Shown here piece after piece: positions 11,988 through 25,668 of a stretch of 25,738 nt of DNA. The DNA is from Spirogloea muscicola (lineage: Eukaryota > Streptophyta > Zygnematophyceae > Spirogloeales > Spirogloeaceae). Location of the stretch: positions 120,861 through 146,598 of the forward strand of contig WELB01000045.1 in assembly GCA_009602725.1 (NCBI GenBank), written 5' to 3'. Position numbers and translations under genes: made by a program. The notes under the pieces were generated by a model that made no database searches, had not been told where the DNA came from, and saw only the letters and a program-made list of their open reading frames with translations. The number at the start of each line of letters is the position of its first letter. Position 1 is the stretch's first letter.

Positions 11988-12253
11988 ACTGCCGGCATGC
12001 CCATCTCAGCTGGAAGATACCTTCATGTCGAGCATATCCCAGACTTGCAACATTCTCCAGTAGGGTATGGAGGCGAGGAACTATGCAGCCAGAAGTGTCA
12101 AATGCGGCTGGTAGGAGGTGGTCACTGCGGGGGTAGTCAGAGTAGTGTAGGAGCTTTCTCTGCTCTGCACCTCCCACTGGAGAATATTGCAAGTTTGGGA
12201 TATGCTCGAGCTCAGATGAGGATATGCTTCCAGCTCAGATGGGCATGCCAGCA
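11988..12253. repeat. Imperfect inverted repeat, arms about 75 bp
   Basis: The left arm 11988-12063 matches the reverse complement of the right arm 12176-12253. Shared blocks in order are GGCATGCCCATCT, AGCTGGAAG, CGAGCATATCCCA and ACTTGCAA, then ATTCTCCAGT. The arms differ by a few substitutions and one ~6-bp length change; the loop is about 112 bp. Neither arm carries a recognisable gene. It lies 120 bp from the left end of the terminal-inverted-repeat element at 12377 and may be an older, related insertion. Confidence 0.75.
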
Positions 12254-12376
12254 GCCTACTTGTCATTCTTGCGACGTCGAGTGTCAGCTTGTCTGCAGCG
12301 AGCTCAGGCTCATGCGTTGCATCAAAATGCTGGTCGAGCCTTAGCTGGTAGTTCAAGAGCTTGTCAATTGCCGTCC

Positions 12377-13087
12377 GGTATTCGGGCATCAGTTAGCGAC
12401 CTCTATGTGCTAACCCGCGGTTACTGAGCGGGTCAGCTTAGCAGCAGTTGACGTGCATTTGTCAATGTGCTTGCCTTCGTACTTGGCCACACAGGCCCTC
12501 CATCTAAGAGTACACACTCACTCTTCACTGCGCGGCCAGCAATATGAGTCGATGCTGAATTCTTGTACGCTTCCGTCACATCCACGTCAACCAAGGCTCG
12601 TGGGCCTCCGCCAGGTTGTGCACCCACAATGTCCAGGGTGCGACGGTGATGGCGTCCCTGAGAATCTGTGGTGATGGGCATTATATTGCTCACTTCCACA
12701 ATGGCGCGGTAGCCGGCGTCGCGCTTCAAGTCCGCCAGGGCGCCCCGTAGAAGATTGTGAACGCCCACTTCTTCAGGGCCTGTGACACCGCAGCATGTGG
12801 GTAGCGAGGTCTCCGCCCTCCACACGGAAGCCGCACTCACACTCAGTTACTCCCGATCAGGCAGGTCGGGGGCAGGCCAAGAAATGGAGAAGCGCCGGTA
12901 TGCCTCGGGGCTGATTTTGATTGCGTTGTGGATCCCAATGAATGCGTGTGTGTTAAGAGATGGAGGGCCATATATGGAAAAGTACAAAGGCAAGCACATC
13001 GACAAATGTACGTCGCCTGCTGCTAAGCTGACCCGCTCAGTAACCACGAGTCAGCACAAAGAGGTCGCTAACTGATGCCCGAATACC
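12377..13087. mobile_element. ~710-bp element with ~145-bp terminal inverted repeats
   Basis: The left arm, about 12377-12520, begins GGTATTCGGGCATCAGTTAG. The right arm, about 12943-13087, is its reverse complement (for example TTACTGAGCGGGTCAGCTTA at 12420 and its complement near 13020-13042). The arms remain similar through AAGGCAAGCAC/GTGCTTGCCTT to CCCTCCATCT, with scattered substitutions. A further arm copy lies at 21361-21478. No target-site duplication is obvious: flanks are TTGCCGTCC on the left and AATCGGGGGG on the right. The centre holds a decayed nuclease-like fragment. It could be a non-autonomous DNA element, or a head-to-head pair of retroelement 3' ends. Confidence 0.75.
12433..12838 (-). 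pseudogene. Decayed retroelement-type zinc-finger and nuclease-like fragment
   Basis: On the minus strand 12776-12838 reads CECGFRVEGGDLATHMLRCH, a C-x-C...H-x4-C-H zinc-binding pattern. In the next frame, 12433-12778, it continues HNLLRGALADLKRDAGYRAI, then RRTLDIVGAQPGGG and ALVDVDVTEAY. A zinc knuckle, then a basic patch with LD, about 15 residues, then VDVDVT, is the arrangement at the C-terminus of many non-LTR reverse-transcriptase proteins with a restriction-like (PD-D/ExK) endonuclease. The frame change between the two parts and a TGA just upstream of the zinc motif mark it as broken. Its last codons run into the left terminal repeat. No reverse-transcriptase motif is present in the window. 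Confidence 0.5.
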
Positions 13088-13412
13088 AATCGGGGGGCGT
13101 TGGCCTTGGTCAATTGTGCAGGCTGTCCTTTCCGTCGTCCCCTTTGGGAAGGTGAGCGCATTCCTAGCCTCGTCGCCGGCGGCGGGCGGCGGCGGCAGCG
13201 TTGCGGCAACGGCGGCGCCGCGGTCTTCTTGCTGCGCGCTCTTCGTCTGCCCATACCGCACCTTGCGCAGCTTCGGTCAAGGTGGTGCTCAATCAGCAGC
13301 TTACGTCAACAACAGCGGACGCAGACGCGGTTTTGCCTTCAGCGCGCGTGCCAGCTGGGGCGAACATCCTCTTCATTGCCTGGTGCCAAGCCGAAGTGCT
13401 TGTCGTCCAGCC
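13088..13412. other. GC-rich upstream region of the SMUG1-like gene
   Basis: This stretch separates the mobile element from the first SMUG1 exon. It contains a GGC-rich run around 13175-13220 and several overlapping open frames on both strands, typical of GC-rich 5' leader sequence. None shows a recognisable domain. It probably contains the promoter and leader of the downstream gene. Confidence 0.35.
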
Positions 13413-16156: not shown

Positions 16157-16999
16157 TGTCATCTGATTTCGCACCGAAATTAAAGCAGCCTGAAGTTCTG
16201 CAGTGTCCACAAGTCTTGCTGGCCCAGCTCTTGGGAGCGTCTTGGCGGCTTTGGTGTTAGCAAGGCACCAAATGGCCAGATGTTGACTGAAGCTGTCAAC
16301 TTTGAGATCTTTCCTGTTTTTCACAGCTTGCTGCTTTGCGTCCCACCCTGACCCAGTGCAAGTGAGCTGAAAAAGGCAGCACCTCTGTCAGTCTACGAGC
16401 TTGCAGTTCAGAAATAAGACGTATGCAACAGAAGTTTGCAGCAGTCGGCAAGGGATGGCCAGGCATTCCGGTAGCTGCGGCTGTGGCTGCATCTGCTTTT
16501 CTCACAAGGAGAGCAGCTCCTGAAAGTGGAGATAGGATGTCACAAGCGAAGCACTCATGGTGAGAGGGCGTCACGAATGAGAAGCTCGTATGACTGTGAT
16601 TGAGCACGAGCTAAGCCTTTCCATTCTTCTTTCCGGGCTGGCCAACCACAGCCATTGCCTCTACTGGAAGACTGATTCCTCCCGATTGAGAGAAGTGCTC
16701 GCCCACTGAAGGTAGGGGCTAGGAAAGGCCAGCCCAAAGAGAATGGACAAGGTCCGAAGAGCCGAAAGCCGAAAGGCGCAATAATAATGATAACCACGAG
16801 TGAGCAGCAGCTAGTCGGAGTGACTGGCAGCTGGGAGAGAAGCACTCCGCCTAGAACAGATGCAGCAGCCATAGCGCGGCCTGCAGTTGCAGTGGAGTTG
16901 AGATGTCTGCCTAGCGGCTCCCTAGCTTCCTCCGCACTCCCGCGCCGCGCCGTGCATCGCGGGCTCCACGGCGGCATCCGGCGTTCCTGCGCCGGCTTC
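16157..16999. other. Spacer between SMUG1 and TatB genes
   Basis: The region holds the 3' flank of SMUG1 and, further on, the upstream region of the TatB-like gene. It contains an inverted pair of family C repeats at 16607-16765, listed separately. The long minus-strand frame 16555-17262 is antisense to the TatB exons and is judged a shadow. No further gene was recognised. Confidence 0.4.
16607..16765. repeat. Family C repeats, inverted pair
   Basis: The copy at about 16720-16765 reads GGCCAGCCCAAAGAGAATGG then ACAAGGTCCGAAG. A copy in reverse orientation lies at about 16607-16655 (its complement reads GGCCAGCCCGGAAAGAAGAA then TGGAAAGGCTTAG). The same ~40-bp unit recurs three times upstream of PIN1. 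Confidence 0.65.
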
Positions 17000-18647: not shown

Positions 18648-21600
18648 CTACACAATGGGGCTTGTCAAAGCCTGAATACAAGAAGGGGTCTGCAGCCAGG
18701 CAAGACAGGCAAACAATGGACACGTGGGCCACAGCTTGGAAGCTGCCACACTGGCTTGTATCAGCTGCAAGACATTTTGCTAACAACAGCGAAGGCAAGT
18801 CTTCTAAGGGTCTGTGCTCATGCCAAGAAGCATGTCTCGTACCTGTTCAGGCTGTTCCAGGTGTGGTAAATGCCCACACTGACTAATCCAGTGCAACTTC
18901 GCATTGCTGACTTCTTCCAATAATCTCTGCTTGCAATGAGCAAGAGCCACGCTGTAAGCACTGAGCAGGTCTTGGGAATTGATGTGTGAGGCAAGTATTG
19001 TATGGTGCTCAGCAGCAGAAGAAGGCGGACTTGCATCTCTGCATCTCTATAATCGCATCTCTCTCTCTGGTTTTCTGCATTCTCTCCAACACGCGCAAAT
19101 AGCAAGCTAAGTCATTAGGTTGTGACACGCGCTCTCACCAGAGCAATATCCTTGGCAAGAATCTTATCATTTTCTCCCCACAGAACAACGACCTCCTGCT
19201 TAATCTGCACAAGCATACTCTACGTGAGTCCACTACTTCATGCCCAAGCCCACGTGGCATGTCAGGGGTCTCCTGAATCTCAGCAAGAAAGAAGCCACCG
19301 TGCTGCTAAGGTCTAGTAATCTTATAGCAATGGTGGGACCTGGGGCACAAGTCCAGCCACATTGTAGCCTCCGCTCTGCATGAAGGACACCATAGCATCT
19401 GACCATCCTGGCTGGAGGCAGTGCAGCCTCCCAACCTGTAAGGAGGGGCTGACACAGAAATTATCTGCAGAGCCCAACTGATGGCAAGCAGTGTGAGGCT
19501 ATGGATCGTGATGTTAACTGAAGACGAGCGGAGCTGCAGGCTGTAGTGTGAACAGGATGCCAAGGGGTCTGCATGCACGCTGACATTTAAGGTATGCTGC
19601 TTGCAAATGGAATGTAGGCCTTACCCGCATTGCATCATCTGTTGCAAGTTTGCCGTTCCAATAAGCTAAAACGTTTGCATAGGACCGAAGCGGGATGCTT
19701 TTGAGGATATTGACCTGGCAGAGGGACAAAGTATGATGCCTTAAGTCTAGCATTAGCCTGATGAGCGACCAGCACTAATGGTTGACCACGCGCCAAGCAG
19801 TGGTTGTCCTCGCAAGCATGTTCTGGTGGCAATTAAAGCATGAGTATATCATAGAGGAATGTCGAAGCATGAAGGCTTGCTCACTCCAGCGTATGCCAGC
19901 ACTCTGGGAAGAGTGGCCATGTTGCCGACACCTTCCGTGAAAGCCTGAGCATCAATCAGGCAAAGCTTTGCCACCTGCTCTCCACAGTGGAAGAGACAGG
20001 AACCAGTCAGCTGCTAGAGGGCCAGAACTTAGGTGGACTTTGCACGTTGAGCAGACTAACCATATGCAATTTGCTACCAAGTCGTCAGAGTAGTATTGTC
20101 AGGAGAGTATTTGCTCCTCGGACACTTGTGGGATCCTTCTGTTAGGATTGGCTGAGTGAGGAGTGAGACGCAAACTTACAGCATCTGGGTGTGTCAGAGC
20201 GAAGTCAATAGCAGCAGCGCCACCAAGCGAGGGGCCGACGACCACTACAGATTGTCCAATGTGCTGCCTCCAGAACTGCACGAAATAAACATCGTCAACC
20301 CGTGACAAGCCAGTGGCTCATGGGCGTTGACTCCAGTAGGAGTGTCAATGCTGCCTTTGTCATCAAGGGGGAGGGGACATCACTTTGCATCTGGGCTGCA
20401 AGATCCATTGCCTGCCGAGGCAGCAGATTGGAGCTTGTCATGTACCTCATATAGATGCTCTCTCTTGGCTGCAACTGAAAATGTCCGTGCAACATTCTCT
20501 GCATCACGAAAGCAAGAACGAAGCCAAAGTGAGGATCAAAAGCAGCAGTTGGGAGAGTAGAGTCATGAGGAATTGACCAAGTTTGCCACTCAGTTACCAA
20601 TCCGCCAATGTGGCACTCTTGCACTGTTGGTTGCAATTCAGGCTACTACACTCTTGCATGGACTTGTCCAGGGTGACGACTGTCAAGGAGAAGGGAGGTA
20701 GAACAGAGACCTCACTAGCATCACAGAAGCCCCAGCCGAGGAGGTCAACAGCCCAGGCTGCAGCGCCTGCCTGCTCGAGCAGGGGCAGAAGCCGCCGCCA
20801 CTCCAGGCACGAGCTGCACGGTTTGCCAGAGACTATTACTGAGTCAGGGAGCATCATGATTGTGGTAAAGCCGATGATAGTGCTGACTGCAATTGCTGCA
20901 CTGTGCAGCATGATGAAGCACCTTGCCTGCTAAATTTGCCAATCTTGTCAGAAGCTTATGAATGAGCAGTCCTTGCCAGCTCAATGAGCTCATCTGCTTA
21001 ATCCAGGTCCTAATCCATGCAGCCTAACTAAACAGGCAGCTGAAGTCCTTAAACCTCAGTCCCAGATGCCAGCCACTTTCTATACACGGCTGCCTAGTGG
21101 ACCCATATGCGCATTAGATTTCATGTCGAAAGTTAAAAGTCAAGGCACGTTGGCAATGGCCACTCTCTTGATGACGTCAATCTCAGCAGAGGATTCAGGA
21201 TGCTTAGGGAGTGCAGCCGCTGATCGCTAAGACCTGTCGAAGCTGTGCAGAAGCAGGAAGGGAAGCGCCCCGGCGTCGCCGACACGGCCCTCGGGAGCGA
21301 CGCAGCTGCTCAGGATCGGCTCCTCGGCGAGGGTCGTCTGGATCAAGGGCAAAAAATGGAGTGATGGAGGGCCTGAGTGGTCAAGTACAAAGGCAAGCAA
21401 ACTGACTAAAGTACATCACCTGCTGCTAGGCTGACCCGCTCAGTGAGCACGAGTCAGCACATAGAGGCCGCTAACTGAAACCGGGCAACCGGGCAAGGCC
21501 ACCAGTGCGCCGGGTTGAGCAGCACGCAGGCAGGGTGCCGAGACATGCTGCATGCAGCCTTGCGCCCTGTGATGCTCGCAACACAGACGCAAGGCTGCCG

Positions 21601-21866
21601 CGAGCATCACAGACGCAAGGCCGACGCCGCGGCGGCGGCGGTGGCAAAGGCAACTCCCTGCGGCGGCCGGGCTTAGGGTTTTGGGTTTTTGGCAGCGGCG
21701 CCGCACTTGCACTGGGAGCAGTTGGATGCGCGCGGCCAGCGCGCGCGCTGCGGGCTCCCGCAGCGCCGCGACCTCGCGCGGCAGGAAGCTCGGGAATGGC
21801 GGCGCCTCCGTCGCCGCCGCCGCCGCCGCGATTCGGGTGGCGCTGGTGACGAGCCGAGGCGCCGNG
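18648..21866 (-). CDS. Alpha/beta hydrolase superfamily protein, plant type
   Basis: Mapped exons, 5' to 3': about 21707-21866, 21234-21337, 20716-20813, 20446-20474, 20180-20275, 19885-19974, 19625-19714, 19340-19435, 19139-19204, 18843-18926 and 18648-18779 (TAG). Phases agree from 21707 onward and the last ten exons sum to 885 nt. The oxyanion region reads FLLLHSFDSSCLEWRRLLP. The nucleophile elbow is VVVVGPSLGGAAA (Ser of GPSLG), the acid is in VVVLWGENDKIL, and the catalytic His is in SQCGHLPHLEQ. Other matches to a plant family include AVDLLGWGF and AAKREHLYEFW (29-nt exon 20446-20474). Substrate is unknown. The most N-terminal mapped part reads PPFPSFLPREVAALREPAAR; no in-frame ATG lies upstream of it, and the N at 21865 is adjacent. 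The true start is therefore in an unmapped upstream exon or hidden by an assembly error, and a plastid targeting peptide cannot be judged. The C-terminal exon (44 codons) is the least family-like. Confidence 0.85.
21361..21478. repeat. Solo copy of the terminal inverted repeat arm, inside a hydrolase intron
   Basis: The stretch aligns in the same orientation with the right arm at about 12957-13075. Shared blocks are GATGGAGGGCC, AAGTACAAAGGCAAGCA, CTGCTGCTA, GCTGACCCGCTCAGT, CACGAGTCAGCACA, AGAGG and CGCTAACTGA. It lies in the intron between exons 21707-21866 and 21234-21337, so the arm sequence moves or persists independently of the full element. Confidence 0.8.
21670..21692. repeat. Telomere-like TTAGGGTTTTGGG run in the hydrolase's first mapped intron
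   Basis: The run reads GCTTAGGGTTTTGGGTTTTT and sits 14-36 bp inside the intron beyond the proposed donor at 21706. It is part of a set of telomere-like tracts in this window. Confidence 0.5.
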
Positions 21867-22278
21867 AGTGCTAAGGACTGAGACAGCAGTAAGCGAACTC
21901 TCAGTAACCTCTCGTCAGTAGATGCAAGTCTGAGTAGCTAGCAGGCGGAAAGACGTCGCCCTGACGGAAGCCGGAGGCCGCCGCCAGAGCGCGGCCTGCG
22001 CGCAATTGGACCGCAAAAGCTAGGGACCGTGCAAAGAGACGGCCAGGCGCATCCGGTAAACTTGGGCGAGGGACCCGGCGACATGGAAGCCAGGCTGCTC
22101 GCCTTGCTGCCTGTCGCGGCGGGCCGCTGCTCGCCGCGCAAGGCGGTGAAGGAGGTCCAGCCATTTGGCGCCAAAGGCGCCGTGTACGTCGACGGCGAGT
22201 GGGAGAGGCCAGCCCAAAAGAATGGACAAGGTCTGAAGGAGTAAAGTTCGTTTTGAGGTTAAGCCTGTTATTCTTTTC

Positions 22279-22357: not shown

Positions 22358-22379
22358 CCCTAAACCCACTCCTAAACCG
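22358..22379. repeat. Telomere-like CCCTAAACCC run upstream of PIN1
   Basis: The run reads CCCTAAACCCACTCCTAAAC and lies in the repeat-rich spacer, just before the inverted family B end. Confidence 0.45.
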
Positions 22380-22792
22380 TGGGGGCGACGTCTTTCCGCC
22401 TGCTAGCGATTCAGAGTGCCCCTTCTCTCTATTCAGACTTGCATTTACTGACTAGAAGAAGTGGCTCTCCCAATGGGGGCAAGGGCTGTGAGAAGCCAGC
22501 CCGTAAAGAATTGACAAGGTTCGAAGGGGCCAAACTACGAGCTAAGCAGCAACTACGGGGCCTGAAGAGGCTATGACAGAACATGGCTAGAGGTCACGCT
22601 GAGAGTCGGCTTGCTGCTGTCTCAGTCCTTGGCAACTCCGGCTCCTTCAGACCTTGTCCATTTCTTTAGGCTGGCCTCTCCCAGCCTCCAGTCAATCTGG
22701 CCGCGCTTGCTTAAACCGTCCCACCAACAAACCTATGTCCTTCAACCCCAGCCCCTAAGCCCCGGGCTTCTCGCGGCGGGGACGGGGCCGCC

Positions 22793-25410: not shown

Positions 25411-25668
25411 GAGAGAAGGCGCGCGGGGCGCATGAATTGAAAGGGAGGCCAATTCAAGCCAATACATTGTTCAGGCAGAGTCGAGTGCAGACTAAACAAT
25501 GCTACATAATACGGAGACCTAATCTAAGGTACCTAAGATGACATTAGTACCCACGGGTGAGCAAAGAGAGAAGGCGAAATTAAAGCGAGGCCAATTCAAG
25601 CCATTACATTGTTCAGGCAGAAAGTGCAGAAAGTGCAAAGAATGCAGCGCAAAGAATGTGGCTACATG
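25411..25668. repeat. Imperfect tandem direct repeat, ~100-bp units about 155 bp apart
   Basis: Unit 1 is about 25411-25508 and unit 2 about 25566-25668. Both start GAGAGAAGGCG, share GAGGCCAATTCAAGCCA followed by TACATTGTTCAGGCAGA, and end GCTACAT. The sequence between and after the units has no recognised gene. The last bases of the window, after 25669, are GC-rich and may be the start of another gene, which cannot be judged. Confidence 0.8.

Follow-up and report, generated by a model that had tools for sequence, protein, structure and literature searches.

The window, by which we mean the whole stretch of 25,738 nt of Spirogloea muscicola contig WELB01000045.1 analysed here, encodes according to Pfam WD40 repeats (2433–2765), a PPIC-type isomerase (22.8 kb) and the ribosomal protein L23a (near 24.7–24.9 kb), and its minus strand carries pieces of a DENN domain at 8.9–9.8 kb that score 23.1 and 18.5 bits, below the Pfam cutoff of 23.4. 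The best PDB match of the L23a stretch is 4v7e_CX (E = 3.7e-17), which, like the next few PDB matches, presumably comes from a land plant. This gene content is that of a eukaryote and points, though weakly, to a green alga. Among the 41 proteins of the window that were scanned with Pfam, no transposase or reverse transcriptase was found.

An inverted repeat and a third copy of its arm

At 12377–13087 the window holds an inverted repeat that measures 711 nt from arm to arm. Its arms (12377–12523 and 13087–12940) align by blastn over 148 columns with 85.8% identity and one gap (E = 9e-43) and contain an ungapped core of 122 nt (12377–12498 and 12966–13087) that is 88% complementary. Within 12200–13300 the arm pair reached 169 bits, compared with at most 35.6 bits for inverted matches among 60 mononucleotide shuffles. 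The inverted repeat is genuine and far above chance, and the long inverted ends of about 145 bp described in the first-pass annotation were thereby borne out. A third arm copy (T, Table 1), absent from that annotation, is 85.3% identical to the left copy (L) and 84.2% identical to the right copy (R) by blastn, and in an ungapped inverted match (21363–21492 against 12375–12504) it agrees with the left arm at 82% over 130 nt. T is solo: the sole arm oriented to pair with it is that of L, 8.9 kb away. Within the window, a 32-nt pattern derived from L, R and T and allowed up to three mismatches matched at these three sites only, and it had 0 matches in 100 shuffles. The arm is a repeat that also occurs without a near inverted partner.

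Table 1. Positions in the window of the three copies and of the features associated with them.
Feature	Position	Strand	Remarks
Left copy, L	12377–12945	-	Putative retroelement 3' region of about 570 nt; inverted homology to R over 12377–12523
Ends of L	Outer (3') end 12377; inner end between about 12915 and 12956	-	Coding-like by eye to about 12915
Right copy, R	12940–13087	+	About 148 nt of the 3' region of L; outer (3') end 13087
Third copy, T	21360–21492	+	3' region of L and R, solo; clear similarity over 21360–21478, to the stop codon, and weak similarity on to 21492
Zinc-knuckle-like CECGFRVEGGDLATHMLRC	12785–12841	-	Frame broken downstream; translation and motif scan
RTLDIVGAQPGGGPRALVDVDV	12577–12642	-	Resembles the D...D strands of the LINE restriction-like endonuclease; motif scan and published description, in excerpt (PMC5678591)
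Candidate left target-site duplication GTCAATTG	12363–12370	+	6 nt outside the arm
Candidate right target-site duplication GTCAATTG	13109–13116	+	21 nt outside the arm; weak

Coding-like sequence in the left copy

The minus strand of L carries two coding-like motifs, CECG...HMLRC and then RTLDIV...LVDVDV, with frame breaks, the stretch RTLDIVGAQPGGGPRALVDVDV beginning 199 nt beyond the start of CECGFRVEGGDLATHMLRC at 12841. Read outwards on this strand, L yields ISPEAYRRFSISWPAPDLPD, TECECGFRVEGGDLATHMLRCHRP, EEVGVHNLLRGALADLKRDAGYRAIVEV and RRTLDIVGAQPGGGPRALVDVDVTEAYKN and, within the arm, AKYEGKHIDKCTSTAAKLTRSV, in interrupted frames; the first of these we take to resemble the stretch that precedes the knuckle in protist elements. 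In the outward direction, on the plus strand, the R arm carries the coding end of L in an open frame (EKYKGKHIDKCTSPAAKLTRSVTTSQHKEVAN followed by a stop codon), and its open reading, DGGPYMEKYKGKHIDKC...KEVAN*, lies at 12959–13075. One base of R is absent from both L and T, so the original frame of the arm is uncertain. The first-pass annotation had described a broken zinc finger followed by an LD...VDVDVT motif; both are present in a broken frame as it had stated, whereas the spacing H-x4-C that it gave is not found, the actual arrangement being CX1CX11HX3C followed by an H.

The published description of the LINE restriction-like endonuclease, in excerpt, gives a knuckle of the form CX2-3CX7-8HX4C, an H that starts helix 1, a D or E that ends strand 1, a PD-(D/E) core and a displaced catalytic K, which is the first K of KX2KY (PMC5678591). 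The order, as placed by eye in L, of knuckle, H, acidic residue, D...D and KY towards the outer end is alike in L and in these LINEs, as is the occurrence of truncated copies, whereas the knuckle spacing deviates from the published form, the first K of KX2KY is missing (PMC5678591, in excerpt), and no reverse transcriptase is present and no profile matches, the comparison with the families being by description only. VHNLLRGAL and then AIVEV occur in L in the order expected of the H of helix 1 and the acid of strand 1, an assignment made by eye; in RTLDIV...LVDVDV 14 residues separate the two D and the P is absent. KY is found in all three arms and the first K of KX2KY in none of them, the copies being decayed. 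The window contains a single match to a loose pattern for the pair of motifs; among 100 dinucleotide shuffles, 3 had one or more matches to this pattern and 0 had a match to a stricter one, both patterns having been devised after the sequence was seen. LINEs with restriction-like endonucleases include R2, R4, NeSL, HERO and CRE, and Dualen/RandI elements, which occur in Chlamydomonas and relatives, have both kinds of endonuclease, according to the portions consulted of two accounts (PMC4640811, PMC8226300). The motifs suggest the label of an endonuclease, and a likeness to the C-terminus of a restriction-like-endonuclease LINE, short of membership in any of these families, is plausible.

Profile and structure searches added little. 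Pfam returned no match for the fragment at E ≤ 1, an outcome that the first-pass annotation had named as refuting its reading; we give it little weight because the fragment is decayed and Pfam may lack a model of such nucleases. NCBIfam gave nothing meaningful for the fragment, its sole row, XdhC at 13.5 bits against a cutoff of 212, being noise. PDB sequences gave six matches up to E = 10 (best E = 0.13), 0 of which were R2 or endonuclease chains, and an AlphaFold2 model built without an alignment had a mean pLDDT of 33.4 and was unusable. Searches for relatives were made in collections that are not meant for algae: viral contigs gave no match by protein and 7 and 2 DNA-pattern matches, 0 of them confirmed (the query behind the 2 was about one third antisense to L and so only partly a fair probe), genome contigs gave no protein match and 47 pattern matches, 0 of them confirmed, and neither plasmids (blastn) nor phages (tblastn) gave any relative.

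Ends, flanks and target duplication

Outwards, L and R stop at the identical base (...GAATACC) and then diverge, and T is clearly similar up to the common stop codon TGA, 12 nt before the end of L and R, its last 12 nt matching L at 6 of 12 positions. The first 120 nt beyond the ends are at shuffle level, the alignment score being reached by 263 (L–R), 118 (L–T) and 100 (R–T) of 300 shuffles. No run of more than two A was present in the 40 nt outside the ends of L, R and T. Inwards, the sequence upstream of the T arm is unlike the interior of L (283 of 300 shuffles scored as high); compared in register, T matches L at 6 of the first 6 positions but at only 16 of 60 overall. R extends 16–19 nt further inwards than T (inner ends at about 12940 and 21360, respectively), and its innermost 20 nt match L at 13 of 20 positions. 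On the inner side L exceeds R and T by about 420 nt, in a comparison of three copies only. By eye, the coding-like run of L extends to about 12915, and the homology of R starts at about 12940, leaving little between the copies. Coding-like sequence thus runs in L from the arm to the junction with R, so that no separate interior is needed.

The first-pass annotation had called for a test for target-site duplications. None directly adjoins 12377 and 13087, and only GTCAATTG recurs, at a distance of 6 nt from the left arm and 21 nt from the right. An exact 8-mer is common to 2.0% of 20,000 random pairs of 40-mers from the window, and 39 of 1000 shuffles scored at least as high as the alignment between the 60-nt flanks; GTCAATTG is a weak, suggestive candidate for a target duplication. 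For T as a solo insert, the sole candidate is GGGCAA (6 nt).

These ends bear on the reading of the unit as a non-autonomous DNA transposon that had taken up a piece of a retroelement, for instance a Mutator-like element with long terminal repeats. The long inverted arms, the total of 711 nt and the outer end shared by L and R to the base agree with it, as do the inner ends of R and T, which lie just 16–19 nt apart; arms of fixed length would likewise place these inner ends close together, which is the main point in favour of a transposon. Nevertheless, we consider this origin distinctly unlikely: the arms themselves resemble the coding end of the module, the third copy is solo, and 6 and 21 nt separate the arms from the candidate duplication. 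Moreover, Pfam (E limits from 0.05 to 1) found no transposase and no reverse transcriptase in any of the 25 open frames of 100 aa or more at 13.04–20.93 kb, the only rows there being weak and unrelated (FTCD_C, 0.63; EPS8_2nd, 0.033; K_channel_TID, 0.049), and the 40-nt flanks of the 9.1-kb pair formed by L and T share no 5-mer. For the latter two reasons a 9.1-kb element spanning L to T is also unsupported. Every point against a DNA transposon applies equally to an undescribed class of element, with its own protein carrying the module between true terminal inverted repeats, and since the right arm bears the same coding end as the left, such a class is scarcely probable.

Divergence of the copies and their proposed origin

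Among 131 ungapped columns, 99 were identical in L, R and T; L had 8 private changes, R 6 and T 17, and in one column each copy had a different letter. Over 113 columns L and R were 88.5% identical, and L and T as well as R and T 85.0% each. Differences at codon positions 1, 2 and 3, counted in the frame of the R arm, where L and T lack one base, were 6, 3 and 4 (L–R), 7, 5 and 5 (L–T) and 3, 7 and 7 (R–T). As no pair has an excess at the third position, the divergence looks neutral. L and T are broken, and R is a short fragment. The similar private-change counts of L and R (8 and 6) are expected if the two are similar in age. All three thus seem to be neutral relics, L and R being about equally old, which is indicative only as the variable columns are few (32).

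The closer match of L to R than of either to T over the 113 columns, together with the last 12 nt, which L and R have in common and in which T differs, would also agree with a single retroelement tail that was turned into an inverted duplication by repair, through snap-back or template switch. However, the flanks of L and R are unrelated, so that such a duplication must have halted within a few bases of the point at which similarity to T is lost, which makes this course of events very unlikely.

We consider it more likely than not that 12377–13087 consists of two copies of the 3' end of one non-LTR-like family, both truncated on the 5' side and joined 5' to 5' with their 3' ends outward. Among the three options offered by the first-pass annotation, it is this head-to-head joining of two 3' ends that is best supported, because T is solo, both arms carry the coding end and the coding-like run of L meets the junction; the DNA transposon and the new class of element gained no support. 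Several observations speak against the head-to-head reading: the exact outer end is common to L and R alone, the similarity of T stopping 12 nt earlier, and the inward difference between R and T depends on the stretch with 13 of 20 matches. The same holds for the outcome of the searches for relatives in the collections named above, for the lack of Pfam or R2 matches, for the deviating knuckle and the missing first K, for the short A runs outside the three ends and for the distance of the candidate duplication from the arms. Target-primed reverse transcription normally yields 5'-truncated copies with one fixed 3' end. For the head-to-head arrangement, reverse transcription may have started at both DNA ends of one target break, each end priming at the 3' end of a separate element RNA, and two incomplete cDNAs, of about 570 and 148 nt, would then have been joined at their truncated 5' ends. 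The second target end would anneal to the 3' end of a second RNA, unlike in twin priming, which takes place inside one RNA, and the product would be an apparent terminal-inverted-repeat element without a transposase. In this scheme the priming from both sides in a single event, the passage through RNA and the nature of the nuclease are inferred.

The twin priming of LINE-1, as set out in an excerpt of its description, involves one RNA, to which the second target end anneals internally, so that the 3' end is not duplicated (PMC2912911). The mechanism proposed here is alike in that both target ends prime reverse transcription (PMC2912911, in excerpt), whereas 12377–13087 has the same 3' end on both sides, which calls for two RNAs or two events. 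Head-to-head 3' ends of LINEs in algae did not appear among the literature matches listed (titles and starts of abstracts).

The main rival to two truncated tails is an origin as a Penelope-like insert, in which inverted short repeats (pLTRs) surround a truncated body, the copy at 21360 is a solo pLTR and the element's own reverse transcriptase performs the insertion; we regard it as unlikely. The canonical Penelope endonuclease is of the GIY-YIG type, and a simple GIY-YIG pattern had 0 matches in the six frames of 12300–13150 and of the whole window, a weak test in decayed sequence; moreover, the coding-like part resembles the restriction-like endonuclease type instead. In Adineta vaga, an excerpted account describes one truncated Penelope copy between inverted 212-bp pLTRs without a target duplication, other inverted-pLTR inserts with duplications of 8–10 bp, solo pLTRs, and head-to-head as the commonest inverted arrangement (PMC3846280). 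The 148-nt arms, the solo copy and the 8-mer candidate duplication fit these inserts, and the inverted repeats round a truncated body and the occurrence of solo repeats are alike in both; unlike in A. vaga, the repeat is 148 nt long rather than 181–218, no GIY-YIG pattern is found and the candidate duplication lies at some distance from the ends (PMC3846280, same excerpt).

Should two retroelement tails lie head to head at this locus, such tails would mimic terminal-inverted-repeat transposons and risk being misfiled in repeat libraries. That head-to-head dimers are the regular form in which a retroelement family of this alga inserts, with two RNAs priming on either side of one cut and the products mimicking such transposons, is a long shot; if many copies of the family were head-to-head, they would form a natural record of double-sided target priming.

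Other repeats were observed in the window. About 120 nt to the left of the inverted repeat lies a second, unrelated foldback (arms 11989–12064 and 12173–12254, 82.9% identity over 82 columns), which has no clear target duplication at its ends. A repeat of 40–50 nt (GGGAGAGGCCAGCC...GGACAAGGTCTGAAGGAG) occurs three times (16717–16764, 22200–22241 and 22642–22683), the second and third copies being mutually inverted, and nested inverted repeats are present near 22 kb (21929–21967 with 22377–22415, 89.7%; 21857–21912 with 22589–22646, 83.1%). Direct repeats comprise a dispersed pair of about 125 nt (59–183 and 21969–22092, 72.8% identity) and a short pair at 25434–25491 and 25576–25630 (86.2%).
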